Shown one piece after another: positions 5,113-64,000 of a stretch of DNA of 64,000 nt; the stretch's first letter is position 1, and the number at the start of each line of letters is the position of its first letter. The stretch is from positions 62,001-126,000 of the forward strand of contig NZ_JAGSIE010000003.1 in NCBI RefSeq assembly GCF_018138385.1. Direction: 5' to 3'. The notes beneath the pieces were generated by a model. That model worked only from the letters and a program-made list of their open reading frames with translations. It had not been told where the DNA came from and searched no databases. This DNA is from Allobacillus saliphilus (lineage in GTDB: Bacteria > Bacillota > Bacilli > Bacillales > Alkalibacillaceae). The position numbers were made by a program, and so were the translations under genes.

Positions 5113-5259
5113 AGATATGTACCCGATTCAAAGACATATGGGCCCAGCCTAAAATTGTATGCACCAAGAAGCGAGATATATGTGCCCAATCTAAAATTAT
5201 ATGTACCTAAAAGTGAAATATATGCATCTAACTTGAAAATATATGAGCCTGATTGATGG
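5113..5259 (+). repeat. array B: seven 21-bp units (ATATGTGCCC family) upstream of chr3N
   Basis: Seven units of exactly 21 bp start at 5113, 5134, 5155, 5176, 5197, 5218 and 5239. Positions 3-12 approximate ATATGTGCCC and the rest varies. The array ends 30 bp before the chr3N start codon, so it lies in the leader or promoter region. Same family and orientation as array A. The remainder of the 4897-5288 gap shows no gene. Confidence 0.8.
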
Positions 5260-5288
5260 CTTAAAGAAAGTGAAAGGGGGATGCCATA

Positions 5289-10019: not shown

Positions 10020-10163
10020 GTGTTCAGCGAAAGAAGAGGCCATTTACTAGAGTGGAAAGTATTGGACTTTTCTCGCTAACTTATTTTAGTTTAATGGGTA
10101 AAATTGCGGGTATTTATGTTGGAAGAAGAGTTAGGAAGCAAGGAATTTAGGGGGCATCTTTTA

Positions 10164-13292: not shown

Positions 13293-13481
13293 TTTATCGA
13301 CGGCTTCTCCCGGTTTATCGACGGCTTCTCCCGGTTTATCGGCGGCTTCGCTCGGTTTATCGGCGGCTTCGCTCGGTTTATCGACGGCTTCGCTCGGTTT
13401 TTCAGCGGCTTCGCTCGGTTTATCGGCGGCTTCGCTCAATTTTTCGATGGCTTCACATGGTTTATCGATGGAACGCTTTAC
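13293..13481 (+). repeat. array C: nine 21-bp units (ATCGGCGGCTTCGCT family)
   Basis: Nine units of exactly 21 bp start at 13293 and run to 13481, with core ATCGGCGGCTTCGCTCGG. The first two are identical to each other; divergence rises toward the 3' end. The array lies in the 402-bp gap between the convergent TRAP operon and gltC, about 50-60 bp past the hairpin. A single decayed copy follows near 13519. On the minus strand it would read as a PSEAADK heptapeptide repeat, but there is no start or ribosome site. Confidence 0.85.
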
Positions 13482-21323: not shown

Positions 21324-21530
21324 CTGCCTGACGAAGCGCGCCAAGCCGCCCGACAAACGGTTGCAGCCACCCGACGCAGCGTTCCAGCCACCCGATTACG
21401 AGCTCCAGCCACCCGACAAACGGTTTTAGCCGCCCGATGCAGCGTTCCAGCCACCCGACAAACGACTCCACCCGCCCGATTACGAGCCCTAGCCGCCCAA
21501 TGCAACGCGCCACCCGCCTGATTACAGACT
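21324..21530 (+). repeat. array D: about ten 21-bp units (CCGCCCGACAAACGG family)
   Basis: Units of 21 bp are clear from 21346 (starts 21346, 21367, 21388, 21409, 21430, 21451, 21472, 21493), with one 22-bp-spaced copy before and a decayed copy after. Two sub-types alternate irregularly: CCGCCCGACAAACGG and CCACCCGACGCAGCG; a third has GATTACGAG. It fills the 304-bp gap between vanZ and the NERD gene. Same family and orientation as array E on the other side of that gene. Long open frames through it on both strands are a by-product of the unit length (seven codons). Confidence 0.88.
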
Positions 21531-22634: not shown

Positions 22635-22658
22635 ATAAAATATAACCAGGTGAGCGAG

Positions 22659-22948
22659 CCGCCCGACAAGCGGTTCCAGCCGCCCGACCCAGCGTTCAAG
22701 CCGCCCGACAAACGGTTCCAGCCACCCGACGCAGCGTTCGAGCCACCCGACAAACGGTTCCAGCCGCCCGACGCAGCGTTCGAGCCGCCCGACAAGCGGT
22801 TCCAGCCGCCCGACGCAGCGTTCGAGCCGCCCGACAAACGGTTCCAGCCACCCGACGCAGCGTTCGAGCCGCCCGACAAACGGCTCCAGCCACCCGACAA
22901 ACGGTTCCAACCGCCCAACAAACAGGCTCTACCCGCCCGACTGAACAC
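22659..22948 (+). repeat. array E: about fourteen 21-bp units (CCGCCCGACAAACGG family)
   Basis: Thirteen units of exactly 21 bp run from 22659 to 22931 and a partial copy follows. Units largely alternate between CCGCCCGACAAACGGTTC and CCGCCCGACGCAGCGTTC types, giving a 42-bp higher-order period in the middle. It begins 24 bp after the NERD stop and runs up to the terminator of the convergent AI-2E gene. Forward translation gives PPDKRFQ/PPDAAFE heptads, but no start or ribosome site supports a protein. Confidence 0.92.
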
Positions 22949-33774: not shown

Positions 33775-34126
33775 CCGCCCGACAAACGCATGGAACCGCT
33801 CGACCAGCGCGCGGAACCGCCCGACCAGCGCGCGGAACCGCTCGACCAGCGCGCGGAACCGCTCGACGAACGCGTGGAACCGCTCGACGAACGCGTGGAA
33901 CCGCTCGACAAACGAGTCGAACCGCTCGACCAGCGCGCGGAACCGCTCGACGAACGCGTGGAACCGCTCGACAAACGGGTGGAACCGCTCGACCAGCGCG
34001 CGGAACCGCTCGACGAACGGGCGGAACCGCTCGACGAACGGGCGGAACCGCTCGACAAGCGTGCGGAACCGCTCGACGAACGCGTGTAACCGCCCGACAA
34101 CGGGGTTGTAACCACCCGACCATAAA
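33775..34126 (+). repeat. array F: about seventeen 21-bp units (CCGCTCGACGAACGC family)
   Basis: Fifteen units of exactly 21 bp run from 33775 to 34089, then a 22-bp unit and a partial one. Core CCGCTCGAC is near-constant and is followed by CAGCGCGCGGAA, GAACGCGTGGAA or AAACGGGTGGAA variants. It is the GC-richest stretch in the window. It starts 38 bp after the degU terminator and fills most of the 545-bp gap before degV. The family is clearly related to arrays D and E (CCGCCCGACAAACGG). Confidence 0.92.
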
Positions 34127-49195: not shown

Positions 49196-50035
49196 CTATG
49201 CTTCAACTAATGGATATATTTTATGCAACCAATTGGGTAGTTCACTCACTTTTACTGAAGCGATTTCTTCAAATGTGTATCCTTCAACAAATAAAGCTTT
49301 CACAATCTCCCATCCAACATAATAGGCTTCTCGTTCGGTGTTTGTCGACCCCGTTCCCATAGTAAATTTATAAACCGTTTCAGACGAATCGTCATTCAAA
49401 TAAGGTCGTATTCCATGGATCATTTCACTCTTTTTAACACGACAAGAGGCAAGCCAACCTTCCTCGTGCTCAATATAAACCCGATCTTCTTTTCCGGGTA
49501 CCAGCTTTTTACTTACATGAGTGGCTAAACCTTCCTGAATGATTATGGAAGCAATGGTTCTCTGCCAATCAGCATTCATGTTGGCGCTCTTTATATGAAC
49601 GACATGCGTAAGTTCATGGCATAGAGTTATATCAGAATTACCATTTTCAATCGGCAGGCATAAGGCTAGTCGCTCATCATCATAAGGAGCAACAAACGCA
49701 TTATTTTCAAATGCGCCGACAAAGTAAATTATCACAATCTTGATTGGATCCTCACAGCCTAATAAGGATTTAATTTCGGATAAATAGTCTGCAACTTTCT
49801 GATGTTCTGGTTCCCAATTTTTTATGTAATCAAATCTTTCTTCATATTGATCCCACGCATGCTCCAGTAATTCTTTTGCAAGTGTCTGTCCGTCTGGACC
49901 AGGAGGGATTGCTGCAAAATTATAATGCTCTTTCCATAAATTCCACCGTTCCTCTTTGGTGCATTTCTGCTTAGTCGCTTTTTCATAAAAAGTTATGAAT
50001 TTAGGAATAAAACTTTTTACTTCGATTTGATCCAT
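49196..50035 (-). CDS. putative zinc metallopeptidase-like protein (HExxH)
   Basis: A 279-aa soluble protein with the zincin motif HELTHVVH (about residue 150), which would place a catalytic Glu between two zinc-binding His; a downstream acidic ligand may lie in TNTEREAYYVGWEIV (about 240). This resembles DUF2268-type predicted Zn-dependent proteases. No signal peptide. The frame starts 30 bases earlier, but ATG at 50035 follows AAGGAGG with somewhat long spacing. Monocistronic, divergent from the broken kinase gene. Substrate unknown. Confidence 0.7.
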   Translation of the reverse strand: MDQIEVKSFIPKFITFYEKATKQKCTKEERWNLWKEHYNFAAIPPGPDGQTLAKELLEHAWDQYEERFDYIKNWEPEHQKVADYLSEIKSLLGCEDPIKIVIIYFVGAFENNAFVAPYDDERLALCLPIENGNSDITLCHELTHVVHIKSANMNADWQRTIASIIIQEGLATHVSKKLVPGKEDRVYIEHEEGWLASCRVKKSEMIHGIRPYLNDDSSETVYKFTMGTGSTNTEREAYYVGWEIVKALFVEGYTFEEIASVKVSELPNWLHKIYPLVEA

Positions 50036-50143
50036 ATGAGTGTTTGCCTCCTTAATTACTAACATAATAGTTAGAATTTTTAGTATAATAAGTGTAATAT
50101 CAATGGATGTAATTCGTCAATTTGATGAAAAGGAGATTAACGA

Positions 50144-50986
50144 ATGAAACTCGGGAAAATGATTGGTGAAGGTGGTAATTCCAAAGTATTTGAGTAGGGC
50201 AAAGATCAAGTGATCAAGCTAGCTAAACCGAATACTGGGGAAGCCGAATTACAACGAGAATACAAAAATACATTAGCAGTTTGGGAACTAGGTTTGCCGG
50301 TTCCTCAGCCATTTGGTGTGCTTTATGTTGGTAAACGACCAGGACTTGTTGTTGAACGAATTCATGGTATGTCACCGAAAGAACGGTTATTCCATGAATT
50401 GCTTCAACAGGATGAAGGCCAACTCCGTTTACCGACAAATGACATCAAAGAGACGGCGCGCATGCTCAGTCAAATCCACCAACATACGCACACTGCATTA
50501 CCTTCACAAAGAGACTATATAGCAAGAAATATTTTGTCTGTCGATTACCTAACAAACGAAGAAAAGCAAACGATTTTATCAATGATGGATGCCATTCCGA
50601 TAAAACAACAAATTTGTCACGGTGACCCGAATCCAAATAATATTATTGTAAGCAACAGACGGCATTTTTTCATTGACTGGAACGATACGACAATCGGTAA
50701 TCCTGAAGCGGATATCGCGGAATACATTGTGATGATGAGGCATGCTATTCTGCCACCTGAAACTCCTTCAAAAATCATTCACTTATTCAATCAGATGCGA
50801 GAAGGAATCATACAAGTTTTCGTAAAAGAATACATGCTTCATTCCAACATCATCTGGGACGAAATAGAACCTTGGCTAGTTATAATCGCAGCAAGAAAAT
50901 TACATGCGGATGCTATCTTAGAGGAGGAGAAAAAACTTCTCGTAAAAGAAATCAGAAAGAAGTTAAAAGACCCTGAGCCTCAATAG
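50144..50986 (+). pseudogene. aminoglycoside phosphotransferase-like kinase with an early stop
   Basis: The frame opens at ATG 50144 after AAAAGGAGA and encodes GEGGNSKVFE (Gly-rich loop), but codon 18 is TAG (50195-50197), where relatives typically have Trp (VFEWG). The frame then stays open to 50986 with kinase features: ICHGDPNPNNIIVSNRR near codon 165, HFFIDWND and a family-typical C-terminus. A short product could start at GTG 50210, but it would lack the nucleotide-binding loop. It is therefore a probable pseudogene or a sequencing error. Substrate unknown; aminoglycoside resistance is not implied. Confidence 0.75.
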
Positions 50987-51062
50987 CCCAGTATACCCTT
51001 TATTTCCCGGGAAATTTGTCGAAATCATGAATCTTAGCCATAAAGAATAAAATAAAAGTCGA

Positions 51063-51088
51063 GTTTATGGAGGATTATGTGCGGGTAA
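51063..51088 (+). promoter_or_regulatory. sigma-B-type promoter candidate for hpf
   Basis: GTTTAT (51063-51068), 14-bp spacer, GGGTAA (51083-51088), close to the sigma-B consensus. In B. subtilis the homologous gene has a sigma-B promoter. The start codon is 41 bases further. Confidence 0.6.
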
Positions 51089-51129
51089 GGTAGAATAATA
51101 TATACATACGACTAAAAGGAGGCATGCTT

Positions 51130-51711
51130 ATGTTTAAGTATAATATCCGTGGTGAAAATATCGAGGTGACCGATGCGATTCGTGATTACGTCGAGAAGAA
51201 AATCGGAAAATTGGAACGTTATTTCGATCAGACGCCTACTTCCGAAGTACATGTCAATCTAAGTGTTCATAATGATGGTCAAAGAATTGAAGTGACGATC
51301 CCGATGACAGACTTGGTTCTCCGTGCTGAAGAGGCACATAATGATTTATACGCTGCAATTGATTTAGTCGTAGATAAATTGGAAAGACAAATTCGTAAGT
51401 ACAAAACAAAAGTAAATCGTAAGTTCCGTCAAAAAGGCGCTGCGAAATACGTATTTGCTGAAATGGAAAGAGAAGCAAACGCCAATGGTGGTATACTGTT
51501 GGATGAAGAAGAATCTGAATTAGACAGTGAAGTTGATATCGTACGTGTGAAACGGTTTGATTTAAAACCGATGGATTCTGAAGAAGCGGCACTGCAAATG
51601 GATATGTTAGGACATAATTTTTACGTGTTCGAAAGTGCTGAAACCGGAGAAACGAACGTTGTTTACAAACGTAAAGATGGAAGCTATGGCTTGATTGAGC
51701 CAAATGCTTAA
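51130..51711 (+). CDS. hpf: long ribosome hibernation-promoting factor
   Basis: A 193-aa long-form HPF. N-terminal ribosome-binding domain (RGENIEVTDAIRDYVEKKI near 7, VTIPMTDLVLRAEEAHNDLYAA near 57, location only), a charged linker, and a C-terminal dimerisation domain (VRVKRFDLKPMDSEEAALQM near 137; GLIEPN at the end). It dimerises 70S ribosomes in starved cells. ATG at 51124 is in frame, but 51130 gives correct spacing from AAAGGAGG. It follows flagellar genes and precedes secA as in B. subtilis. Terminated by a strong hairpin. Confidence 0.95.
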   Translation: MFKYNIRGENIEVTDAIRDYVEKKIGKLERYFDQTPTSEVHVNLSVHNDGQRIEVTIPMTDLVLRAEEAHNDLYAAIDLVVDKLERQIRKYKTKVNRKFRQKGAAKYVFAEMEREANANGGILLDEEESELDSEVDIVRVKRFDLKPMDSEEAALQMDMLGHNFYVFESAETGETNVVYKRKDGSYGLIEPNA

Positions 51712-51723
51712 TGGCATTACATC

Positions 51724-51768
51724 AAATAGCCTTGGTCTGATTGCTGGACTAAGGCTATTTTTATTTTC
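51724..51768 (+). terminator. hpf terminator
   Basis: Stem AAATAGCCTTGGTC / GGACTAAGGCTATTT with an eight-base loop, then T-rich. Confidence 0.9.
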
Positions 51769-51794
51769 TCATATATTATAGTGATTGTTGATTG

Positions 51795-51941
51795 GCTCAT
51801 ATCTTTTCGAATTGGGAACATATTTTTTAACATAGGGGGCATATATCGAAAAATTGGTCACATAATTACCAATTTAGGGAGCATATCATTTCGATTTGGG
51901 CTCATATCCTTTTAATTAAGGAGCATATCTGCGAAGACAAG
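51795..51941 (+). repeat. array G: seven 21-bp units (GGCATAT family)
   Basis: Seven units of exactly 21 bp start at 51795 and run to 51941. Each opens with G[AC][AGT]CATAT and closes with TTGG or TAGG; the middle varies. This is the complement of the ATATGTGCC motif in arrays A and B. It starts 27 bp after the hpf terminator. The remaining gap to 52193 holds no gene. Confidence 0.8.
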
Positions 51942-52193
51942 ACTCGTTTTCCGCGGTGAATCTGCGGACATTATGCAATACATAAAAGCATAAATTATCT
52001 ACTCAAAAAATATTTTTAAAAAACTTTCATTTTGTAGATAAATCATTTTTCCAATCGATTTCTGCTCACTTATCGTACAATCCAGACAAAAAGGGTCTCA
52101 AAACCCTGCCATACGTGCATTTTAGCGATTTTTCTTCCTTATAAACCTGTGATATAACTAAGACATGCAAGATCATTAAGGGGGGAATACGAG

Positions 52194-52403
52194 ATGTGCA
52201 ATATGAAACCTTGCCCCAGTTGTTCACGTCTCGAGATAGAACTTAAACAACAGAACGAGATCATTGTGCAATTAATGCGAATTGTCGCAGCGTCTAATGA
52301 AAAAATATCCGTTATCGAAGACCATCTGAGTGTTTATACCTCCACAACGAACGCTCCAGAAATCCTTCAACCGAAATCCTACTCCTTCCTCAATTCCAAA
52401 TAA
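52194..52403 (+). CDS. small CxxC protein upstream of secA
   Basis: A 69-aa protein with CPSC at residues 7-10 (a possible metal site with Cys2) and a helical middle (EIELKQQNEIIVQLMRIVAA). The ATG at 52194 follows AAGGGGGGAAT; a second ATG nine bases later is possible. A strong terminator follows it, separating it from secA. No transmembrane segment. Family not recognised; it could be a short regulatory or coiled-coil protein. Confidence 0.6.
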   Translation: MCNMKPCPSCSRLEIELKQQNEIIVQLMRIVAASNEKISVIEDHLSVYTSTTNAPEILQPKSYSFLNSK

Positions 52404-52434
52404 CAACCCGCTTAATGATCTTGTAATGGTTGAC

Positions 52435-52460
52435 TACTGCCCCAGTCAACCATTTTTTCT
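52435..52460 (+). terminator. terminator upstream of secA
   Basis: AATGGTTGACT/AGTCAACCATT stem with loop ACTGCCCC (trimmed), followed by a T run. Confidence 0.9.
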
Positions 52461-52539
52461 TAATTGAGGGGAAATTCATCTACAACATACTTGTCGATTT
52501 TTAGCCGACAATGTGGGAGAGTCACACGGATGAGGATTG

Positions 52540-52569
52540 TTGTCATGGTTGTTTCATTAGTGTTATCAT
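52540..52569 (+). promoter_or_regulatory. secA promoter candidate
   Basis: TTGTCA (52540-52545), 18-bp spacer, TATCAT (52564-52569), 44 bases before the ATG. Confidence 0.55.
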
Positions 52570-52612
52570 GAATGGTGTGTAAGTGTAAATTTAATCTTGG
52601 GGTTGAGGATAA

Positions 52613-55120
52613 ATGAAACAGTTATTGACGAAAGTATTTGGTGATGGAAATAGTCGCCAGTTGAAAAAACTAGAAAAAGTTGCGGATCAAATAGAAGAAC
52701 TTGAGCCACAGATGCAGCAGCTTTCTGATTATGCATTACAAGAAAAAACAGATGAGTTTAAAAAACGTTATCAAGATGGCGAGTCATTAGATAATTTATT
52801 ACCGGAAGCGTATGCGGTTGTGCGTGAAGCTTCGAAACGTGTGCTAGGCATGCGTCCGTTCTACGTCCAGTTGCTTGGTGCAATTGCCCTACATCATGGG
52901 GATATTGCGGAAATGAAAACGGGTGAAGGGAAAACATTGGCCTCAACGATGCCGGCATACTTAAATGCGATTACCGGAAAAGGCGTTCATATTATTACGG
53001 TGAACGATTATCTTGCCGATCGTGACTCAACTGAAATGGGTGAGCTCTATAATTGGCTTGGTCTAACAGTTGGTTTAAATACGAATGATTTATCGAAAGA
53101 CGAAAAGCGCGAAGCTTACGCAAAAGATATTACGTATGGTACGAATAATGAATTCGGGTTTGATTACCTACGCGATAACATGGTGTTATATAAAGAAAAA
53201 ATGGTTCAGCGTCCGCTTCATTTCGCGATCATTGACGAGGTAGACTCCATTTTAATTGATGAAGCACGTACACCATTAATTATTTCTGGGTCTCAAAGAA
53301 AGTCTCAGTCCAATTACTTACAAGCAGATCAGTTTGCTTCGACATTAAAAAATGAAGAAGACTATACGTATGATGAAAAAACGCGAAATGTGCAGCTGAC
53401 AGAACAAGGAATCACAAAAGCTGAACAATATTTCAATATCGAAAATCTTTATAATTTAAATAATGTCGCGTTGACGCATCATATTAATCAAGCGTTAAAA
53501 GCGCATGTTGTTATGCGTAAAGATACTGATTATGTCGTTGAGGAAAACGAAGTCGTCATCGTCGATCAATTTACAGGTCGTTTGATGAAGGGCCGTCGCT
53601 ATAGTGATGGACTACACCAGGCAATCGAAGCGAAAGAAGGCTTGCCGATTCAGAAGGAAAGTATGACACTTGCGACGATTACTTTCCAGAACTTTTTCCG
53701 GATGTATGAAAAGATATCGGGTATGACAGGTACAGCCAAAACGGAAGAAGAGGAATTTCGTAATATTTACAATATGCAGGTCGTTTCTATTCCAACGAAT
53801 GAACCGATCCGCCGGGATGACCGCGCAGATTTGATTTATAAAACCGTTGATGGAAAATATCAAGCGCTCGTTCGGGAAGTGAAGGAGCGTCACGAAAAAG
53901 GACAACCAATTTTGATTGGTACAGTCGCTGTCGAGACGTCTGAGTTAATCTCAAATTTCTTGAAAAAAATGGGCGTTAAACATAATATTTTGAACGCGAA
54001 GAACCACTTTAAAGAAGCAGAGATTATTTTAGAAGCAGGCCAAAAAGGTGCCGTTACGATTGCGACGAACATGGCCGGCCGTGGTACAGACATTAAATTA
54101 GGCGACGGTGTAAAAGAACTAGGCGGATTAGCTGTTATCGGTACGGAGCGACACGAATCACGCCGGATTGATAACCAGCTTCGTGGACGTTCTGGTCGTC
54201 AAGGAGACCCGGGTGTCTCTCAGTTCTACCTTTCCATGGAAGATGAATTGATGCGTCGTTTCGGTTCGGACAACATGAAAGCGATGATGGACCGATTTGG
54301 CTTAGAAGAAGATCAGCCGATTGAAAGTAAAATGGTATCCCGTGCAGTGGAATCTGCTCAGAAACGTGTTGAAGGAAACAACTTTGACGCACGTAAACAG
54401 TTACTTGCGTATGATGATGTTATGCGCCAACAGCGTGATATTATTTATGAACAGCGTAAAGATGTTCTTGAATCCGACAGCTTGCGTGAAATTATCGAAG
54501 GTATGATTCGTTCAACAGTCGAACGGAATGTACTTGCATACACTCAAGATGAAGACGATGAAAACTGGGATTTAGAAGCATTGGCAGAATTTTTACAGGC
54601 GAATGTGTTGAACCAAGATGAAGTTTCCGTTGATGATTTGAAAGGGAAAGAACCGGAAGAAATCATTGAATGGGTCATTGGTAAAACACAAGAGAAATAC
54701 GATGCTCGTGAAGAAGAATTGACCGAGGATCAAATGCGTGAATTTGAAAAAGTCATCCTACTGCGTACGGTTGACAGCAAATGGATGGACCATATTGACC
54801 AAATGGACCAACTGCGCCAAGGAATTCATTTGCGTGCATACGGTCAAAACGATCCATTGCAAGAGTATCAAATGGAAGGCTTCTCGATGTTTGAAGAGAT
54901 GATTGCATCCATCGAACAAGAAGTCGCTAAGTACGCAATGAAGGCACAAATTCGAGAAAACTTACAGCGTCAAGCCGTCGCGACAGGTACTGAGGCGATT
55001 GCCGGCGGACGTCAACAACAGAAAAAGCGTCAGCCGATTGTGAAGAAAAAAGAAGTCGGGCGAAATGAACCATGTCCATGCGGAAGCGGAAGAAAATATA
55101 AGCATTGTCATGGCAAATAA
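52613..55120 (+). CDS. secA: preprotein translocase ATPase SecA
   Basis: An 835-aa Sec motor. Walker [15 protein letters not shown] near residue 100, Walker [15 protein letters not shown] near 207, [14 protein letters not shown] near 483, [11 protein letters not shown] near 520, helical-wing and scaffold regions, and the C-terminal zinc/SecB-type tail [12 protein letters not shown] (residues near 820). It energises export through SecYEG. Start ATG after GGGGTTGAGG. Monocistronic, ending in a strong terminator 10 bases after the stop; array H follows. Confidence 0.98.
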
Positions 55121-55129
55121 TAAAATGTT

Positions 55130-55172
55130 AAAAGGTCGAAAAGCTGATTTCCCAGCTTTTCAACCTTTTTTA
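55130..55172 (+). terminator. secA terminator
   Basis: Stem AAAAGGT.GAAAAGCTG / CAGCTTTTC.ACCTTTTTT with a six-base loop. Confidence 0.92.
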
Positions 55173-55181
55173 TTGGATTGG

Positions 55182-55391
55182 TCACTGATGTCATTAGTTA
55201 AGGATCATATTTTTTCATTTTGGTTACAAAAATCTTTGAAAAGGTCGCATATATCTGTAATTTGGTACCATAAGTCTTCCAGTTGGGCACATATCTGGAT
55301 TTATTGGTCTCATATAAAACTGAATTGGGCACATACCATTTTGAATATTCAAGCCAAGGTTGATATTTTTAAAAAAGTCGCATATAAGCCA
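55182..55391 (+). repeat. array H: ten 21-bp units (GGCACATAT family)
   Basis: Units of exactly 21 bp from 55182 to 55391, each close to GCACATAT near the start and TTGG near the end; several units are decayed. It starts about 10 bp after the secA terminator, in the same orientation as array G on the other side of the secA region. The remaining space to prfB (55392-55625) shows no gene. Confidence 0.75.
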
Positions 55392-55625
55392 AAAACAGTT
55401 ACATTTTACCGCCTAACCTGCATAAAAACTAAAAAACAGGTTGCGTATCGAACGCATTAGGTCACATGAATTCAGCGCTTGGTCGTAAAAAACTCCAGAC
55501 GGGTGGCATTATTACAATAAAATTGACCGGAAAAAAATCCACTTGCAACGAATTGTTCAATTTTAGTTTTGTTTAATCGTGTTATAATACGGGTATATGG
55601 AAACAATAACTGAAGAGGTGAAGGT

Positions 55626-56727
55626 ATGGATTTAACAGAAATCAAACAGAAAATTGACAAAATGAGTGAGACATTAGAAAACTTTAGGAGGTCACTTTGA
55701 CTTACCTGAAAAGCGTAAACGAATTGATGAGCTAGAAGTTCAGATGACTGAACCGGGTTTTTGGGATGATCAAGACAATGCTCAGCAAGTAATCGATGAA
55801 ATGAATGGACTCAAACAGACCGTTCAAGAAGTGGACAAGCTTTCAGAAGAACTTGAAAACCTTGACGTTTCTTATGAACTGGTCAAAGAAGAAGATGACA
55901 AAGAGCTTTTTGATGATTTACATGAAAGCATTCAACAATTATCGAAGGAACTCGACAGCTTCGAACTTGAAATTTTATTGAGTGAGCCTTACGATAAGAA
56001 TAACGCGATATTGGAAATTCATTCGGGTGCTGGCGGAACTGAATCCCAAGATTGGGCGGCAATGCTCCTCCGGATGTATACGCGATATGCTGAGAAACAA
56101 GGCTTTAAAGTTGAAACAATGGATTACTTACCTGGAGATGAGGCAGGCGTTAAAAGTGTCACGATCCTCATCAAAGGTCACAATGCTTACGGTTACTTGA
56201 AAGCAGAGAAAGGCGTTCATCGACTTGTGCGAATCTCGCCATTTGACTCGTCAGGCAGACGACACACTTCATTCGCATCGTGTGAAGTCGTACCAGAATT
56301 TACAGGAGATGTTGAAGTAGAAGTGAAGTCAGAAGATTTACGTATTGATACGTACCGTTCAAGTGGTGCAGGTGGACAGCACGTCAACACATCCGATTCA
56401 GCTGTTCGCATTACGCATGAGCCGACAGGAACAGTTGTTACGTGCCAGTCGGAGCGTTCTCAAATTAAGAACCGTGAACAAGCGATGAAAATGTTGAAGT
56501 CAAAATTATATCAACTCGAAATTGAGAAAAAACAACAAGAAATGGATGAAATTCGAGGGGAACAAAAAGAAATCGGCTGGGGTAGCCAGATCCGTTCTTA
56601 TGTGTTCCATCCATACAACATGGTGAAAGACCACCGTACAAACCTCGAAAACGGCAACACACAAGCCGTAATGGATGGAGAATTAGATTCATTTATCGAT
56701 GCCTATTTACGTTCAAAAGTTGATTAA
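55626..56727 (+). CDS. prfB: peptide chain release factor 2 with programmed +1 frameshift
   Basis: RF2 of 366 aa, joined from 55626-55697 and 55699-56727. The first 24 codons end at CTT TGA C (stop at 55698-55700) preceded by an AGGAGG-like element, the classic RF2 self-regulating shift signal. The main part has the ribosome recognition SPF motif ([15 protein letters not shown] near residue 200) and GGQ motif ([14 protein letters not shown] near 245) that releases peptides at UGA and UAA. Start ATG follows GAGGTGAAGG. Position next to secA is conserved in Bacilli. Confidence 0.97.
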
Positions 56728-56781
56728 CTTTTGGACGTTTAGGGAAACATAGAAACAAACATAATGAGGAGGTCAACAATC

Positions 56782-57114
56782 ATGAAGAAAAAATTACTCA
56801 CAGCAATCTTTGGTGGAATGCTTGTCTTAGCTGCATGTGGCGGCGGAGATGACGGCGGAAACGGCGGTGGAGAAGAGTCAGCATCTGGCGGTGGCGACAC
56901 TGGCCAAGGTGAAGAGCTTTACCAGCAAAACTGTGCATCTTGCCACGGCGGTGACCTATCCGGTGGAGCAGGTCCAGCTCTTGAAGGTGTAGGTGATAGC
57001 TACGACGCAAGTGAAATCGTAGACATCATTCAAAATGGTAAAGGCTCAATGCCAGCACAGAACGTTGAAGAAGGCGACGCACAAGAAATCGCTGATTGGT
57101 TAGTACAACAGTAA
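56782..57114 (+). CDS. cccB: cytochrome c-551 lipoprotein
   Basis: A 110-aa membrane-anchored mono-heme cytochrome. Signal peptide with lipobox LAAC, a Gly/Glu/Ser-rich flexible linker (about residues 20-42), CASCHGG (heme attachment near residue 54) and the axial Met in GKGSMPAQ near 89. It shuttles electrons on the outer face of the cytoplasmic membrane. ATG at 56782 is preceded by AGGAGG with 11-base spacing. A hairpin terminator follows. Confidence 0.93.
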   Translation: MKKKLLTAIFGGMLVLAACGGGDDGGNGGGEESASGGGDTGQGEELYQQNCASCHGGDLSGGAGPALEGVGDSYDASEIVDIIQNGKGSMPAQNVEEGDAQEIADWLVQQ

Positions 57115-57137
57115 ATGGAATGAATGATGTATTGAAC

Positions 57138-57175
57138 GAGCTATCTCATCTGAATGGATGAGATAGCTTTTTTTG
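57138..57175 (+). terminator. cccB terminator
   Basis: GAGCTATCTCATC/GATGAGATAGCT stem, five-base loop, then seven T. Confidence 0.93.
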
Positions 57176-57220
57176 TGAATAAACTTAGAAACGAGCAAGA
57201 AGTAAGACAACTCGAGGGAT

Positions 57221-57388
57221 GTTCAGTGTTAATCCCACTAGCTTCCGTGTTAAATTAACCGCCTTCAGTGTTAAATCGAGAAACTTCAGTGTTAATTATG
57301 CAATCTTCAGTGTTGAACAGCTCACCTTCAGTGTTAATCCCCAAGGCTTCAGTGTTAACGAGTCATTCTTCAGTGTAAGTCAGTACCC
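57221..57388 (+). repeat. array I: eight 21-bp units (CTTCAGTGTTAA family)
   Basis: Eight units of exactly 21 bp start at 57221, 57242, 57263, 57284, 57305, 57326, 57347 and 57368. The first 12 bases, CTTCAGTGTTAA, are nearly constant and the last nine differ in every unit. It begins 46 bp after the cccB terminator in the 667-bp gap before ftsE. The rest of the gap has no gene. Confidence 0.92.
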
Positions 57389-57634
57389 CATCATCTCTTC
57401 TACACTTATTCTATTTAAATTATTCCATTTGTCCTATCGGAACTCTATGTTTAGGTAATATGAACGACTTAGTCAGAGGTAATCGAAGTAAAGAAACCTA
57501 GAATTCGGTCGATATACATCGAAAGGGGTTGATCGATCCGTCAAAACACGACGAAGTTCCTAGTAAACCAAGTTACACTCTAAACTTTGAAATGAAATTG
57601 TAATATAAAAATCGGTAAATTTTCTGCCGAATGA

Positions 57635-57643
57635 TGTTATAAT
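57635..57643 (+). promoter_or_regulatory. extended -10 promoter candidate for ftsE
   Basis: TGTTATAAT has a TGn extension and a perfect TATAAT at 57638-57643, 139 bases before the ftsE ATG. No clear -35. Confidence 0.5.
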
Positions 57644-57781
57644 AGGTTTTAAATTAAATAGTTAGTTGATTGTTCACATACATATCAACCTATCAATCTA
57701 CTAGATTTCCTATAAATACAGAAAAAACATATAGAATCGACAGCTAACGAAAAAACATCTTAGGGGGATCGTTTACTTATT

Positions 57782-58468
57782 ATGATCGAGATGAAAAATG
57801 TTCATAAAGAATATAGCAACGGTGTAATCGCCGTTGATGATTTATCCGTAAATATCGATGCAGGGGAATTCGTTTATATTGTGGGTGCAAGTGGTGCAGG
57901 AAAAAGTTCATTTATTAAAATGATGTACCGCGAAGAGTTAGCCACAAAAGGCGATGTATTGATTGAAGGTAAGAACGTGACTGATATGAAACAAAAAGAA
58001 GTTCCTTTCTTACGACGAAATATCGGTGTCATTTTCCAAGACTTTAAATTACTTCCTCGTTTGACGGCGTTCGAAAACGTCGCATTTGCCTTGGAAGTTA
58101 TTGAAGAAAGTCCGAAGAAAATCAACAAGCGTGTACTCGAAGTTTTGGAAATGGTTGGTTTGAAATCGAAAGCGAGATTCCTACCGAACCAGTTATCAGG
58201 TGGGGAACAACAGAGAGTTGCGATTGCACGAGCAATTGTCAATAATCCAAAGGTTGTCATCGCGGACGAGCCGACAGGAAACTTAGACCCGGAAACTTCA
58301 TGGGAAATCATGCAAATCTTTGAGGAGATCAATACAAGAGGAACGACGATCGTTATGGCCACTCACAGTCAGGAAATTGTAAACAAACTTAGAAAAAGAG
58401 TCATCGCTATGGAAAACGGTCAAATAGTGAGAGACGAGCATCGAGGGGAATACGGTTATGAAGCTTAG
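57782..58468 (+). CDS. ftsE: cell division ATP-binding protein FtsE
   Basis: A 228-aa ABC ATPase. Walker A GASGAGKSSF near residue 38, Q-loop, signature LSGGEQQRVAIARA near 142, Walker B VIADEPTGNLDP near 164, and the switch His in MATHSQEIV near 198. With FtsX it forms an ATP-driven complex that activates extracytoplasmic peptidoglycan hydrolases. The ATG follows AGGGGGATCG. The stop region overlaps the ftsX start by 11 bases, so the two are coupled. Confidence 0.96.
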   Translation: MIEMKNVHKEYSNGVIAVDDLSVNIDAGEFVYIVGASGAGKSSFIKMMYREELATKGDVLIEGKNVTDMKQKEVPFLRRNIGVIFQDFKLLPRLTAFENVAFALEVIEESPKKINKRVLEVLEMVGLKSKARFLPNQLSGGEQQRVAIARAIVNNPKVVIADEPTGNLDPETSWEIMQIFEEINTRGTTIVMATHSQEIVNKLRKRVIAMENGQIVRDEHRGEYGYEA

Positions 58469-59351
58469 TACGATGAGAAGACACGTGCGAGAAGGCACGA
58501 AAAATATAGTGAGAAACAGTTGGATGACGGTAGCGTCAGTTGGTGCGGTAACAACAACATTAGTGTTGGTCGGGATTTTCCTTGCATTAATGTTTAACCT
58601 TAATCAACTCGCTGAAAACATTGAAAATGAAGCTCAAATGAAAGTATATGTAGAAAGAACTGCTGAAGACCAAGACATTCAAGCGTTGGAAAAGCAGATC
58701 AATGAAATCTCAGAGATTAGTGAGATGGAATTTTCATCAAAAGAAGAAGAACTTGAAGGGCTCATTTCCGATATGGGTGAATCGGGGGATCAATGGGAGC
58801 TATTTGAACAATTTAACCCATTGAATGACGCCTTTAATATAAAAACATATGAACCAGAGCAATTGGCAGGCGTAGCCAGTCAAATTGAACAAATGGATAA
58901 CGTAGAAGAAGTCAATTATATGAAAGATGTTGTTGACAGGTTGATAGCTTTCAATGACATTGCAAGATGGATCGGAATCATCTTCATCGGCGCATTATTA
59001 TTGACGGCGATCTTCCTTATTTCCAATACGATTAAAATGACGATTATCGCACGTCAGACTGAAATTGGCATTATGAAACTCGTTGGAGCGAAAAACAGCT
59101 TTATCCGCTGGCCATTTTTCGTAGAAGGTGCATTGATGGGTGTACTTGGATCAATTATTCCGATTGCTGTTGTAGCTGGTGGATATTTCTATCTCTATAA
59201 TCAGTTTGCGAATAAGATTCCAATTCCGTTCTTTGAATTATTACCAGCGAATCCATTTATTTGGCAAATCTCAGGAATATTACTTGGAATTGGCGTTGTA
59301 ATTGGTATTTGGGGAAGCGTAATGAGCGTTCGTAAGTTTTTACGTGTATAA
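58458..59351 (+). CDS. ftsX: cell division permease FtsX
   Basis: A 297-aa membrane protein with four helices (about 25-47, 175-197, 222-245, 267-290) and a large external domain (about 50-165) that contacts periplasmic or external partners. The MKLVGAKNSFIRWPF segment near 200 is the conserved FtsX permease motif. It starts before the end of ftsE. In Bacilli FtsEX activates a cell-wall hydrolase such as CwlO; here a coiled-coil M23 protein is encoded next and is the likely partner. Confidence 0.96.
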   Translation: MKLSTMRRHVREGTKNIVRNSWMTVASVGAVTTTLVLVGIFLALMFNLNQLAENIENEAQMKVYVERTAEDQDIQALEKQINEISEISEMEFSSKEEELEGLISDMGESGDQWELFEQFNPLNDAFNIKTYEPEQLAGVASQIEQMDNVEEVNYMKDVVDRLIAFNDIARWIGIIFIGALLLTAIFLISNTIKMTIIARQTEIGIMKLVGAKNSFIRWPFFVEGALMGVLGSIIPIAVVAGGYFYLYNQFANKIPIPFFELLPANPFIWQISGILLGIGVVIGIWGSVMSVRKFLRV

Positions 59352-59425
59352 AGACGCAAACATCGCTAGAGAGAAACAGCAAGCAAATCTACTAATCTAT
59401 TGAGGATTTGAAAGGGGAACAAAAG

Positions 59426-60937
59426 TTGAAGAAAAACACGGTGAAACTATTCTTAGCAGCAATTTTGTTCGTAGGAATTTTTCAGCTATCAACAGTAACA
59501 GATGTCAGTGCGAAGAGTATCAGTGATTTGCAGAAAGAAAAAAGCCAAGTGAATGAGCAACATAAAGATGTTAAAAGTGATTTGGATAAAGCAAAAGATC
59601 GCCTGAATGAAATTAAACAAAAACAAAAAAATACCCAAAACGAAATCAATAAATTAGATGAAAAAGCATCGAACACACAAAGTCAGATTGACAAGAAAAT
59701 CAACGAACTGAAAGAGAAAGAAAATCAAATTAATACAAAACAGAGTGAAATTGATAAGTTAAATGGAGAAATCAATGAGCTCGAAACAAAAATTAGCGAG
59801 CTTCAAGCAGAAATTAAGCAATTAAAAGAAGAAATTGAACAACTGAAAGCAGAAATTAAAGAGCAAGAAGCGAGCATTGAAAAACGTGAAGACTTATTGA
59901 AAAACCGTCTACGAAGCATACAGAAAAACGGCGGAGACATCCAATACTTAGAAGTGATTTTAGGATCGAAGAACTTTGGTGACTTTATTAACCGAACTGT
60001 CGCTGTTAATAAAATCATGGAACAAGACAATCAGATTTTAGAAACACATATCCAAGAGAAAAAAGACTTGGAAAACAATAAAAAACAAGTCGAAAAGAAT
60101 AAAACAAAAGTAGAAGAAAATAAAGTGCAAGTTGAAAAAGATAAAGAGACTGTCACAGCACAACGTGATAAAGTCGCTTCAGAAAAGAAACAGTTAGAAT
60201 CTCAAAAAGCTTCTTTAGCTGCTGAGAAAACGAAGCTAGACAACTTGTTTGTTCAGTTAGAAGACCAATTAGGCATGAAAGACACACAAATGGCGAAATT
60301 GGACAAACAAGAAGAAGAAGCACATAATCACCAAATGAGTTTAGCTGAAAAAGAAGAAAATCTTCGCAGCCAAAAAGCTGCTTTTGACAAGCTGATCGCT
60401 CAACAGAAAGAAGAAGAACGAAGAAAGAAAGAGGAACAACAAAGCAACTCTAATAAACCAAATTCATCAGGATCGTCGAATAGCGGTTCTGGAAGTGGAG
60501 ACACTCAGATTGAACAAACATCATCTTCCAGTGGTTTCATTCGACCATCAGCAGGTTATCTATCCTCAGGATTCGGTCACAGAAGCTGTAGTGGATGTTC
60601 GTCATTCCACCCAGGCGTTGACTTAGCACAAGGTGGCATAGTACCAATCAAGGCCGCTGCTTCAGGGATTGTAAGTCGTTCGTATTATTCCAACAGTTAT
60701 GGACATGTTGTATTCATTTCTCACATCATTAACGGGCAAAAATATACAACTGTTTATGCGCATATGAGAAACAGAGCTGTGTCAACTGGGCAGACGGTAA
60801 GTCAAGGCCAATACCTAGGAAATATGGGGAACACCGGTCAATCATTCGGTCAGCATTTACACTTTGAAATTCACCGCGGTGGATGGAATGCTTCTAAGAG
60901 TAATGCAGTAAACCCAGCTAATTTCGGAATCAGATAA
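59426..60937 (+). CDS. coiled-coil M23 peptidase (PcsB/EnvC-like), likely FtsEX partner
   Basis: A 503-aa secreted protein. Signal peptide of about 28 residues (ending VSAKS), a long coiled-coil (about 35-335), a Ser/Gly-rich linker, and a C-terminal M23 domain with catalytic motifs HPGVD (about residue 400) and HLHFE (about 480) plus the middle His in VYAHM. This layout matches EnvC- and PcsB-type proteins that couple to FtsX. Start is TTG at 59426 after AAGGGGAAC; a TTG 18 bases earlier is in frame but badly placed. A strong terminator follows. CwlO-like in role, not in catalytic domain. Confidence 0.9.
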   Translation: MKKNTVKLFLAAILFVGIFQLSTVTDVSAKSISDLQKEKSQVNEQHKDVKSDLDKAKDRLNEIKQKQKNTQNEINKLDEKASNTQSQIDKKINELKEKENQINTKQSEIDKLNGEINELETKISELQAEIKQLKEEIEQLKAEIKEQEASIEKREDLLKNRLRSIQKNGGDIQYLEVILGSKNFGDFINRTVAVNKIMEQDNQILETHIQEKKDLENNKKQVEKNKTKVEENKVQVEKDKETVTAQRDKVASEKKQLESQKASLAAEKTKLDNLFVQLEDQLGMKDTQMAKLDKQEEEAHNHQMSLAEKEENLRSQKAAFDKLIAQQKEEERRKKEEQQSNSNKPNSSGSSNSGSGSGDTQIEQTSSSSGFIRPSAGYLSSGFGHRSCSGCSSFHPGVDLAQGGIVPIKAAASGIVSRSYYSNSYGHVVFISHIINGQKYTTVYAHMRNRAVSTGQTVSQGQYLGNMGNTGQSFGQHLHFEIHRGGWNASKSNAVNPANFGIR

Positions 60938-60974
60938 GTAATTTCTCATTTACGGATGAGTAGACGTATAGTAC

Positions 60975-61018
60975 GATAAAAGCATTACACAGTTTGTGTG
61001 ATGCTTTTATCTATTTTT
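60975..61018 (+). terminator. terminator after the M23 peptidase gene
   Basis: GATAAAAGCAT.CACA/TGTG.ATGCTTTTATC stem, then T-rich. Confidence 0.92.
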
Positions 61019-61118
61019 ATAGACGTTGCTATTATTGGTTTCGTCTTTGAATCATCCATCGATACAACTATCGATACATATTGAGATTGGACAAACTTTC
61101 TTGTTTTGAGGTGACCAA

Positions 61119-62615
61119 ATGAATATTAGTAAAAAGTTTTTTATAAGCATGATCTTGATCGCTCTGCTCATCGGTGCTGTCGCAACAGGATTGACGATGC
61201 AAGCGATGGATACAACAGCTAATGACCCTACAACAGAGAAAGAGACAGATGGAAAAGAAGAGACGGATTCTAAGAATGATCAGGAAGAAGAATCTGAATC
61301 GAAAGAAACGAAAACACCAGACGAATTTCAATCACTCGACAGGGCGATCGATCTGATCCAAGCTAATTTTGTTAATGAAGTGGAACGACAAGAGCTCATT
61401 AATGGAGCGATTGAAGGTATGGTCAGTGAACTGGATGACCCATATAGTGAATACTTAAATGCAGAAATGACGAAGCAGTTTAATCAATCATTAGAATCCA
61501 GCTTCGAAGGTATTGGCGCAGAAGTAACAAAACGCGATGAGCATATAACGATCATTGCACCGTTAAAAGGCTCACCTGCTGAAGAGGCAGGGATCCGACC
61601 GAACGACCGGGTGATTGAGGTAGATGGTGAATCGGTTGAGGACTACACCGTGTATGAAGCGACATCACTTATTCGTGGTGAGAAAGGAACAGATGTCGTT
61701 CTGACGATTGACCGACCTGGTGTTGAAGAACCGATTGAAATTACAATTACAAGAGATACAATCCCGCTCACGACTGTTTATTCAGATGTGATGGAGCAGG
61801 ATGGAAAAAAGGTCGGCGTTCTTGAAATCCGTTCGTTCGGTGAAGGAACTGCTAAAGAATTTAATGATCAATTATTGAAATTAGAAGATGAAGAAAATAT
61901 TGAAGGGCTTGTCATCGATGTGCGTGGAAATCCTGGAGGCCTCTTCGATTCAGTCGAAAGTATTTTAGCAAACTTCCTCGGTCCGGATGATCCGTTCGTC
62001 ATGACAGAAAGACGTGGCGAGAAAGGTGAGGCCTACTATACGAATGGCCAAGGCAGAAAAGATTATCCAATTGCTGTGTTAGTCAATGAAGGTAGTGCTT
62101 CTGCGTCTGAAATTTTAGCTGCAGCATTTAAAGAAGTCGTCGAATCTGAAATTATTGGCGAAACGACGTTCGGAAAAGGGACTGTACAACAAGCGATGGA
62201 GTTAGGAGATGGCATGTTGAAAGTTACGGTCATGAACTGGCTCAGTCCGCATGGGAATCAAATTAATGAAGTCGGTGTCGAACCGACAATCGAAGTGAAG
62301 CAACCGGATTATTTCTACACGACACTCATTCAGACAGATGAACCGTTGAAATACAATATGAATGGTGCTGAAGTGGAGAAAGCTCAAATTATGCTAAAAG
62401 GTTTAGGTTATGAAATGAACCGAACGGACGGGTACTTTGACAAACAAACGACAAAGGCTGTTGAAGGTTTCCAAAAGGAGCACGACTTGAATGTAACGGG
62501 AGAAATCAATGAAAAGACGGAAGAAAAACTAGAAACATTGATTTTGGAAGCTGTTGAAAATCCAGAAAACGACCGTCAATTAAAACGGGCTGTTGAAGAA
62601 ATTACAGGTAGTTAA
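61119..62615 (+). CDS. ctpB: S41 carboxy-terminal processing protease CtpB
   Basis: A 498-aa protease with one N-terminal membrane anchor (about residues 7-28), an acidic linker, a PDZ domain (GIGAEVTKRDEHITI near 130, with ELD anchor), and the S41 core: catalytic Ser in VNEGSASASEILAA near 330 and Lys in GKGTVQQAM near 355. A C-terminal peptidoglycan-binding repeat (VEKAQIMLKGLGYEMN near 420) follows. In B. subtilis CtpB acts in spore development signalling. GAGGTGACC precedes the ATG. Followed by a terminator. Confidence 0.95.
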   Translation: MNISKKFFISMILIALLIGAVATGLTMQAMDTTANDPTTEKETDGKEETDSKNDQEEESESKETKTPDEFQSLDRAIDLIQANFVNEVERQELINGAIEGMVSELDDPYSEYLNAEMTKQFNQSLESSFEGIGAEVTKRDEHITIIAPLKGSPAEEAGIRPNDRVIEVDGESVEDYTVYEATSLIRGEKGTDVVLTIDRPGVEEPIEITITRDTIPLTTVYSDVMEQDGKKVGVLEIRSFGEGTAKEFNDQLLKLEDEENIEGLVIDVRGNPGGLFDSVESILANFLGPDDPFVMTERRGEKGEAYYTNGQGRKDYPIAVLVNEGSASASEILAAAFKEVVESEIIGETTFGKGTVQQAMELGDGMLKVTVMNWLSPHGNQINEVGVEPTIEVKQPDYFYTTLIQTDEPLKYNMNGAEVEKAQIMLKGLGYEMNRTDGYFDKQTTKAVEGFQKEHDLNVTGEINEKTEEKLETLILEAVENPENDRQLKRAVEEITGS

Positions 62616-62625
62616 ATAATAAACG

Positions 62626-62655
62626 AAAAAGATGGCTTTCTGGTCATCTTTTTTG
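62626..62655 (+). terminator. ctpB terminator
   Basis: AAAAAGATG/CATCTTTTTT stem with a 10-base loop. The rest of the 326-bp gap to minJ is AT-rich with no gene; a decayed 21-bp-type GGGAACATAT unit may sit near 62757. Confidence 0.85.
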
Positions 62656-62941
62656 TTTAGTAGATCGTTTTAGAAAACTATTTTCCAAACAGGAAAATAT
62701 CCAACCTGAATAATTAAATTTCACGATAAGAGGTTCATCATCTTTGTTTTTGGGAACATATACAGTTGGGAGCTACATAACCAACGAAGCTAGAATTTTA
62801 TTAACGAAATTTGCAGGATTAAGTACTAGTTTTGACGAAGTGTAAAGGTATTAACGAATTTTTCGAAGAACTGTTTAGAAGTTTCAAATATATATATTTG
62901 AATAGACGATGTTGCTTCTTAGAGAGAGTGAGGGATTGAAC

Positions 62942-64000
62942 GTGTGGATGGATTGGCTGGTAGAGATCGGATTAGGAATTTTACGTGTGACATGGCAACC
63001 TCTTTTGTATGCAGCCATAATCTTTACGTTTTGGACAGGGTATAAACGAATTGAAAAGGAACGTAAGCAGTTTGGCCACCGGATTTTTGAAATGACCGCA
63101 GAATGGAAGGGAACTTGGTTAACAGGATTGTTATTTGGCTTACTTCTTTCTGTCGGCATTTTATTGACCGGCGGATTGATTCGTTATGAATGGATGCTGT
63201 TTGTATCCGCCATTACGCTTCTATTTCTGTTGTTTAACCAAACTCGTTTATTGTCACCGATTTATACCATCGGGATTTCTGCATTGACGATATGGCTATT
63301 GAATTTTTTTGATGTAACCATTATTAATCAAACAATTTCAGATGCGATTTACGCTGTCGATCTTGTCTTTGTTAGCTATATTATGCTCGTTTTATTTTTG
63401 GCAGAAATTATACTGGTAGCAACGACGAAACGCTCACGAACATTCCCTGGTTTAGAAAAAAGTGACCGAGGTAAGTTCGTCGGATTCCATTCTGCCAAAC
63501 GATTGGTGTTTGTCCCATTTTTTGTTCCGATTCAAGGAACAGCTTTGCAACTCGAACAGTGGCTACCGTGGTGGCCGGTGTTTGAAATGGGGTCCACAAC
63601 GTTTAGCTTAATGCTATTCCCCGCTATTATTGGTTTCCAACAACGATTTCATAGCACATTGAGTGACCATGGAGCCAAGCAACTAGCGAAAAAACTTACG
63701 TTATTGTTCGTCGTATTGGTGGCTTTAGCAGTTGGCTTATATATGTATCCGGAGTGGGTTTATGTATTTCTCGGAGTCGCGGTTGTTGGACGCATTGTCA
63801 TTCAGTGGGCAACTTTTGTGAGCGAGTCCGGAAAACGCTCGATTTATAGTCCGCAACCAGATGGAATCAAGATTGTCGGGATCATTCCTCACTCACCTGC
63901 AGATGAAATGGGTTTAGTTGTCGGTGAAAAAATTGTTCGGGTTCATGATCAGCCGGTGAGTAATGAACATGAATTTTATGAGATTATGCGTGTCAACCAA
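62942..64000 (+). CDS. minJ: MinJ-like PDZ membrane protein, 3' end beyond the window
   Basis: At least 353 codons; the frame reaches the window edge without a stop, which is why it is partial. Hydrophobic segments in the first 260 residues give about seven to eight helices, followed by a PDZ domain (IYSPQPDGIKIVGIIPHSPA, then GLVVGEKIVRVHDQPV). This is the arrangement of MinJ, which links DivIVA to MinD at division sites. GTG at 62942 follows GTGAGGG with seven-base spacing; ATG at 62948 is an alternative. Position after ctpB matches B. subtilis. Confidence 0.85.
   Translation, partial: MWMDWLVEIGLGILRVTWQPLLYAAIIFTFWTGYKRIEKERKQFGHRIFEMTAEWKGTWLTGLLFGLLLSVGILLTGGLIRYEWMLFVSAITLLFLLFNQTRLLSPIYTIGISALTIWLLNFFDVTIINQTISDAIYAVDLVFVSYIMLVLFLAEIILVATTKRSRTFPGLEKSDRGKFVGFHSAKRLVFVPFFVPIQGTALQLEQWLPWWPVFEMGSTTFSLMLFPAIIGFQQRFHSTLSDHGAKQLAKKLTLLFVVLVALAVGLYMYPEWVYVFLGVAVVGRIVIQWATFVSESGKRSIYSPQPDGIKIVGIIPHSPADEMGLVVGEKIVRVHDQPVSNEHEFYEIMRVNQ

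Follow-up and report, generated by a model that had tools for sequence, protein, structure and literature searches.

Upstream of ftsE in the bacterium Allobacillus saliphilus lies an array of direct repeats in which a 12-bp word returns every 21 bp and the nine bases between copies are different in every unit: what holds the word and the step, and lets the linker drift? We put this question to a 64,000-nt stretch of contig NZ_JAGSIE010000003.1 (contig positions 62,001 to 126,000; hereafter the window), to the genome from which it comes (G000), to the sister species that was the sole other genome of the genus in our word search (G001), and to more distant members of the order Bacillales. The array consists of eight 12-bp words CTTCAGTGTTAA (word A) on the forward strand at window positions 57221-57379, and seven 9-bp linkers; all seven steps are 21 bp, and words 1 to 8 carry, in order, 1, 1, 0, 0, 1, 0, 0, and 2 mismatches to CTTCAGTGTTAA. 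An original prediction had described eight such copies with at most a base or two of change, and is borne out in this and in the start of the array but not in its end, as the words stop at 57379 and the proposed 57388 takes in the nine bases past word 8. Over the best 147 bp, 94 bases are identical at a lag of 21 bp, compared with 44.2 ± 4.9 (maximum 59) in 2000 dinucleotide-preserving shuffles; the linkers are all different, and the closest pair within the array matches at 5 of 9 positions. We conclude that selection on the word and on its spacing is well supported, and we lean, with modest confidence, toward reading the array as phased operator sites, lying in either orientation, for one or more sequence-specific proteins that bind cooperatively.

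Comparison with the sister species

The ftsE gap of G001 holds eight units at the same place and in the same orientation as in the window. Compared in order, the words are identical at 88/96 positions and the seven linkers at 21/63 (26/72 when the nine bases past word 8 are added), and no register shift brings the linkers above 0.40; the flanking 60 bases on the two sides of the array match at 22/29 and 45/56 aligned positions, and identity at four-fold sites, taken over five nearby genes, is 507/828. The original prediction had looked to an alignment of these orthologous gaps to find the 12-mer kept and the 9-mer not, and so it proved. The linkers have diverged beyond the neutral expectation, which implies turnover of units as well as drift. 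Each unit has a single genealogy, in which the linkers are near saturation and the word and step are held, and this is most simply explained by selection on the word and the step.

Across 11 orthologous word-A pairs in the fetched regions, linkers match at 450/657 positions, compared with 2379/4005 for non-orthologous linkers, with optimised unit alignment; in two pairs (L136/L145 and L137/L144) it is mainly the end units that are retained. The 70-bp flanks of the 11 pairs, 1323 aligned bases in all, differ by 336 substitutions and 23 indels, so that the linker substitutions (at least 515, or 907 under a star tree) would lead one to expect 35-62 indels. Only 7 of the 278 steps between units with at most two mismatches depart from a multiple of 21 (Poisson P ≤8e-9, a rough value), which makes off-21 steps 5-9 times rarer than flank indel rates predict.

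The arrays are also retained as loci. For 19 of 22 non-coding period-21 arrays of G000 (from the window and contigs C12, C13, and part of C15), both flanks are present in the fetched G001 DNA, and all 19 have an array of the same family there, three of them, all of family B (see below), being weak counterparts (window 51783, window 55231, and C12 3635); three entries share one gap, and the flanks of C15 18067 lie 6.7 kb apart in G001. In the reverse direction, 17 of 25 G001 arrays were testable and 16 have an array in G000, the exception being an empty 10-bp subgap adjoining a neighboring array that does have a counterpart. One or both flanks are missing for 3 (G000) and 8 (G001) arrays, where gain or loss is possible. 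We found no sign of a mobile repeat such as a miniature inverted-repeat transposable element or a repetitive extragenic palindrome: none of the 19 testable arrays differs in presence or absence at the orthologous site, and inspection, no folding having been run, revealed no inverted repeats or terminal palindromes in what are head-to-tail direct repeats.

Occurrence and make-up of the unit

With up to one mismatch allowed, word A is found at 173 places in G000, of which 64 match exactly, compared with 13 for the reversed pattern. Two words separated by any nine bases (up to three mismatches) occur 157 times in G000, 259 times in G001, and nowhere in the other 58 genomes, and the reversed control gave 1 match, in an unrelated genome. 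A widened word, CTTCARYRTTAA, with at most one mismatch, matches 141 times in G000 and once each in two others of 299 genomes, a set drawn evenly from the order that includes G000 and excludes G001.

The word-A arrays that we examined, at least 24 in G000 and at least 16 in G001, have 3-19 units each, and 305 of their 323 steps are 21 bp. An array on contig C31 (L138) was dropped from the G000 set as a repeat of one on contig C2 (L121); the two share the same linkers, so part of the genome is present twice, whether in the cell or only in its assembly. Units for the conservation table (199 + 164 in the two genomes) were picked by at most three mismatches to word A, linkers ignored, so that word conservation in it is partly built in: 11 of 12 word positions exceed 1 bit in G000, conservation is highest at positions 2-5 and 9-10, and position 7 is loose (0.61-0.88 bit). 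Some arrays use a coupled variant of the word, CTTCAACATTAA. The linker, which the original prediction took to be free, does differ in every unit of the ftsE-gap array, but its length is constrained and its positions 13-17 lean weakly toward W-Y-Y-R-Y (0.28-0.80 bit); position 20 carries 0.21-0.33 bit, and positions 18, 19, and 21 carry 0.04-0.24 bit.

Linkers are hardly shared across arrays, and recent copying is therefore not the cause of the common word: between G000 arrays, 46 of 12966 linker pairs match at 8 or more of 9 positions (26.7 ± 5.7, maximum 56, in 100 column shuffles), compared with 28 of 564 pairs inside arrays, where 1.4 are expected. A linker resembles the one two units away more than it does its neighbor, at 4.80 vs 3.76 of 9 positions in G000 (0 of 1000 order shuffles) and 4.63 vs 3.94 in G001 (1 of 1000); the words of the same arrays show no such A-B-A-B alternation at 42 bp. 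The alternation is also seen in single arrays of families C, D, and E of G000, but not in B, C', or D' arrays, nor in four G001 arrays tested.

Genomic context and coding potential

The ftsE-gap array starts 106 bp past the upstream gene, and its last word lies 402 bp before ftsE. Gene names are our readings of open reading frames (ORFs) or those of the original prediction, without database search; array context rests on our own greedy ORF calls, with orthologous gaps counted in both genomes, and terminator-like hairpins come from a crude scan of our own. The non-overlapping ORFs that flank 40 word-A arrays are oriented ++ in 17 cases, +- in 11, -- in 10, and -+ in 2, and by our tally a terminator-like hairpin lies between a neighboring gene's 3' end and the array in 15 of the 40. 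In co-directional gaps, 21 of 25 arrays are closer to the 3' end of the upstream gene (medians 50 and 110 bp). Over all families, 197 kb of G000 contain 148 gaps, 19 of them with arrays, and 216 kb of G001 contain 174 gaps, again with 19 occupied, or roughly one intergenic gap per 10 kb, a density biased upward in that the stretches were chosen for word A.

A seven-codon protein repeat was considered and ruled out. No frame is kept open throughout more than 20 of the 40 word-A arrays, and stops in the linkers fall slightly short of what column shuffling predicts in every one of the six frames, even in the two closed by the word itself; no frame is special, and the 21-bp step is therefore not a coding one. 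ORFs of at least 70 amino acids overlap 19 of the 40 arrays by more than 30 bp, but at a limit of 150 amino acids only two do so: in L131, a histidine-kinase-like ORF (our reading) enters the array by 34 bp when read from its first possible start; the other is L153. There, in the sister species, 19 units (3683-4244 in array orientation) are enclosed in full by two open frames, of 158 and 186 codons, the longer of which would read LTLKxxE-type heptads; other word-A arrays do not keep that frame open.

Other words at the same step

We counted 41 segments with a 21-bp lag, some of them coding heptads, across 251 kb of G000, made up of the window and of regions selected on word A; every other lag from 12 to 39 has 0-2. 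Besides A, the word families are B (TTGGGnGCATAT), C (AACCGCyCGAC), D (TTTATCrACrGTTAG), D' (TTTATCGACGGCTTC), and E (GACCGTTCAAA). Seven other period-21 segments of the window look non-coding by a crude ORF filter that can err either way (Table 1), so the ftsE-gap array, billed in the original prediction as the cleanest example there, is not the sole clean one. A single ancestor for all word families was considered and is unproven: in gapless circular comparisons of consensus units, word A reaches a best P of 0.12, and P values of 0.02-0.04 are confined to C-D, D-E, and D with the Tenuibacillus word (28 comparisons, uncorrected). Family D also resembles the DnaA box, TTATCCACA, but varies at positions that are contacted there.

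Among 199 genomes, family B occurs only in G000, and its reversed control gave 11 matches in two genomes; ten of these fall in G153, an unrelated genome, and perhaps mark a period-21 array of a different word. Pairs of family D words occur in 10 of 199 genomes and 8 of 98 genera (control 0; the G124 case may be coding), and D-like arrays are seen in several families of the order. Elsewhere in Bacillaceae, too, intergenic period-21 arrays with further words are present. Within the bacterial family, 22 stretches of 20 kb (L159 and L160 included), several of them chosen around ftsE, hold 30 lag-21 segments compared with 0-5 at other lags; by our crude coding filter 9 of the 22 have non-coding period-21 arrays of other words, several of them weak, and the clearest include AATAGCTCATAGAA (G002) and CAGTTGTAGGATTC (G016). 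At the ftsE loci surveyed in the family (L161-L182), G000, G001, and G019 are alone in having a period-21 array in the gap upstream. Among 80 FtsE loci of named species, from which 13 segments were read and L048 was masked, a conserved word with free linkers was found in Tenuibacillus multivorans (L024), Fredinandcohnia onubensis (L055 and L070), Bacillus litorisediminis (L080), Bacillus sp. REN16 (L083), and Bacillus sp. PAMC26568 (L088), the remaining segments being coding-looking or ambiguous.

Three observations stand apart. In F. onubensis (L070 113-632) and Bacillus sp. REN16 (L083 2296-2602), a block made of a terminator-like hairpin (CCTTCCGG..CCGGAAGG) with a T run plus TGTCCGATAAA-type units is itself tandemly repeated 2-3 times. 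A 52-bp tandem repeat of 3.8 copies at window 27250-27450 is unlike the 21-bp arrays, and a period-21 signal at window 59672-60192 reflects heptads in a coiled-coil, peptidase-like gene (our reading), which is coding and unrelated.

Table 1. Words of the ftsE-gap array, its neighbors, and other period-21 arrays (window positions unless a locus is given)
Feature	Position	Strand	Remarks
Word 1 GTTCAGTGTTAA	57221..57232	+	1 mismatch
Word 2 CTTCCGTGTTAA	57242..57253	+	1 mismatch
Word 3 CTTCAGTGTTAA	57263..57274	+	exact
Word 4 CTTCAGTGTTAA	57284..57295	+	exact
Word 5 CTTCAGTGTTGA	57305..57316	+	1 mismatch
Word 6 CTTCAGTGTTAA	57326..57337	+	exact
Word 7 CTTCAGTGTTAA	57347..57358	+	exact
Word 8 CTTCAGTGTAAG	57368..57379	+	2 changes
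Upstream gene, small c-type cytochrome lipoprotein, cccB	56764..57114	+	CxxCH motif; name read from ORF
Terminator-like hairpin with T run	57139..57174	+	between upstream gene and array; own hairpin scan
Downstream gene ftsE	57782..58468	+	name from original prediction and own reading
Period-21 array, family B word	5137..5283	-	read on minus strand
Period-21 array TTTATCGACGGCTTCGCTCGG, family D'	13293..13468	+	nearly whole unit conserved
Period-21 array, GC-rich word AGCCGCCCGAC, family C	21344..21504	+	
Period-21/42 array, family C	22655..22941	+	
Period-21 array GAACCGCTCGAC, family C	33775..34104	+	
Period-21 array TTGGGnnCATAT, family B	51760..51945	+	between ORF 51124-51711 and secA-like gene at 52613
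Period-21 array TTGGTCaCATAT, family B	55194..55352	+	after secA-like gene
G019 array upstream of ftsE	L167 2424-2949		25 units, unrelated word CTGTCCGACTGT, another genus

Interpretation

If the array is a set of operators, a sequence-specific DNA-binding protein would contact the 12-bp word, and recurrence every 21 bp, or two turns of B-DNA, would place the bound molecules on one face of the helix, touching across the linker; the length of the linker would be held while its sequence drifts because molecules on the same face touch across it. We infer protein binding at the word arrays. The phased binding sites of the original prediction stand in that the word is conserved and the linker is not, the binding itself being inferred, and its other suggestion, selection on one half of an old array, is likewise compatible with the data and amounts to the binding-site claim minus a named protein. 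With five or more word families in play, the arrays probably involve either several related factors or a single family of them. That arrays occur in both orientations argues for action on DNA and, together with their position in co-directional gaps, mostly on the side of the upstream gene's 3' end, leads us to propose a structural role at the DNA level, most likely as a protein-coated boundary that would limit read-through or anchor the nucleoid; a boundary role between transcription units is speculative, and a guess from position.

Known systems provide partial parallels. BldC of Streptomyces binds cooperatively and head-to-tail to direct repeats of varying number, as is proposed for the arrays here, but its repeat is AATTxxxx(C), with tracts one helical turn apart and in promoters, unlike ours (PMC5859096). 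RemA, a Bacillales protein, likewise occupies several periodic direct repeats, protecting upstream of epsA in B. subtilis at least six 7-bp regions at 3-bp intervals with a 10-bp period, and these repeats are only modestly conserved (PMC8481266). The arrays here have neither the ~10-bp period nor the modestly conserved AT-rich sequence of a RemA operator, but a 21-bp period and a strict word with 11/12 positions above 1 bit. Plasmid iterons are direct repeats of about two helical turns, placed beside a rep gene, with most of the unit conserved; the arrays here share the two-turn repeat but are dispersed over many contigs. In clustered regularly interspaced short palindromic repeats (CRISPR), the repeat measures about 21-48 bp and each unique spacer some 20 bp or more, which a 12-bp word and a 9-bp linker do not match.

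The turnover of units, the change in array length between species, the likeness of linkers two units apart (as if arrays grew in 42-bp steps), the weak linker consensus with its hint of one ancestral unit, and the slight excess of linker sharing across arrays would all suit functionless bacterial satellite DNA, spread and turned over by slippage and recombination, whose words are alike by homogenization or common origin. We nevertheless think this unlikely, because i) homogenization would have to fix the words yet spare the linkers inside the same 21 bp; ii) off-step indels are few; iii) all 19 testable arrays are kept with the same word family; and iv) one period serves many different words. 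The prokaryotic satellites of Subirana and Messeguer 2019 are also tandem intergenic arrays, some in families, but their survey requires internal regularity, a difference from the arrays here, and the Bacillus family codes that we compared run from 36 to 45 nt, with one of 42 and none of 21 (PMC6749651).

The operators of LytTR regulators (HdrR/BrsR and others) are 9-bp direct repeats mostly 12 bp apart, and in S. mutans the repeat pairs sit 4-11 bp upstream of the -35 box (PMC6193735); their 21-bp step is that of word A, where 305 of 323 steps are 21 bp, in keeping with a rule of 21 ± 1 bp. Phased operators of a LytTR-type regulator would also be in keeping with the three LytTR matches in each genome of the genus. 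We consider this quite improbable, however, because i) the ftsE-gap array does not adjoin a -35 box but ends 402 bp short of the next gene, and 21 of 25 co-directional arrays lie closer to the upstream 3' end (promoters were not scanned); ii) it has eight units, not two, and word-A arrays in general have 3-19, away from promoters and in either orientation; iii) word A is, by eye, unlike the ACCACTTAT-type repeats printed for LytTR (PMC6193735); and iv) G002 has a period-21 array of another word and 0 LytTR matches. We do not, then, assign the arrays to the LytTR operators. Family D (ACAGTTAGC) agrees at 8/9 positions with a LytTR consensus, an agreement with a hand-estimated chance probability of ~27%. 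On contig C37 of G000, a word-A array (10155-10334) lies ~2.4 kb from a LytTR match (12779-13066), which may be chance.

Elements of the 3' untranslated region, that is, a transcribed repeat bound by an RNA-binding protein or a small RNA, could account for the closeness of 21 of 25 co-directional arrays to the upstream 3' end, but are very improbable given that arrays occur in both orientations to transcription, that 15 of 40 have a terminator-like hairpin between the gene end and the array, that RNA needs no exact helical step, and that window 50000-64000 has no Rfam match at the gathering threshold. The TAACTGA intergenic direct repeats of Beggiatoaceae, which resemble the arrays here as many sets of one conserved short word, differ in that a translational role has been proposed for them (PMC4679880). 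Phased AT-rich blocks could curve the DNA intrinsically without any dedicated protein, and TTAA or CATAT blocks do recur in phase in families A and B, but we give curvature scant credence, since the same step is found in family C (AACCGCTCGAC), which is GC-rich and lacks AT blocks, and a strict 12-base word would be unnecessary. An endonuclease, recombinase, or transposase acting at the word might set the 21-bp unit, make of the array a mobile or homing product, and give one fixed period to many words across the order, but it is scarcely to be believed when the sister species has, at the matching site, a counterpart of each of the 19 arrays for which both flanks are present, and no match was found in phages or plasmids (distant blastn) nor an exact tandem pair in viral contigs.

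Several points weigh against the operator reading itself. We found no binding protein for word A; LytTR genes are no more numerous in the genus (3 and 3) than in relatives (0-4), and the clear period-21 array of G002 exists without a LytTR match. Linker sharing across arrays is ~3 standard deviations over the shuffle mean, so some old copying is likely, and homogenization during unit turnover could help to conserve the word. In the one clear one-to-one array pair (L134/L150, eight units), words are hardly more conserved than linkers (92/96 and 67/72), 3 of the 4 word changes being at loose position 7, and the C' and D' arrays of the window conserve nearly the whole unit (lag-21 identity 0.87). 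In the indel estimate, orthologous arrays enter from both genomes and as if independent, and units were sought only 15-48 bp from the last one, so that larger indels would escape. Avoidance of divergent gaps is weak: word A in G000 has 1/24 arrays in divergent gaps (P 0.037), and over all families arrays lie in 3/29 divergent and 16/119 other gaps.

We recognized no published description of such arrays in the open-licence PubMed Central literature, which is not proof of their absence. Beyond the operator reading of the array, it is possible, though we hold the idea only tentatively and with some doubt, that the arrays belong to an ancient Bacillales system with one word per two helical turns and a diversifying family of array-binding proteins, in which words are rewritten in each lineage, the 21-bp pitch stays fixed, and nucleoprotein boundaries between transcription units are frequent; eukaryotic satellites that conserve only a box bound by a protein would offer a comparison for arrays of fixed pitch and changing word. 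A constant pitch with changing words predicts cooperative binding on the same face of the helix. If true, the arrays would represent an unnamed layer of bacterial chromosome organization or gene-end insulation, and a natural experiment in the co-evolution of a protein with its site.
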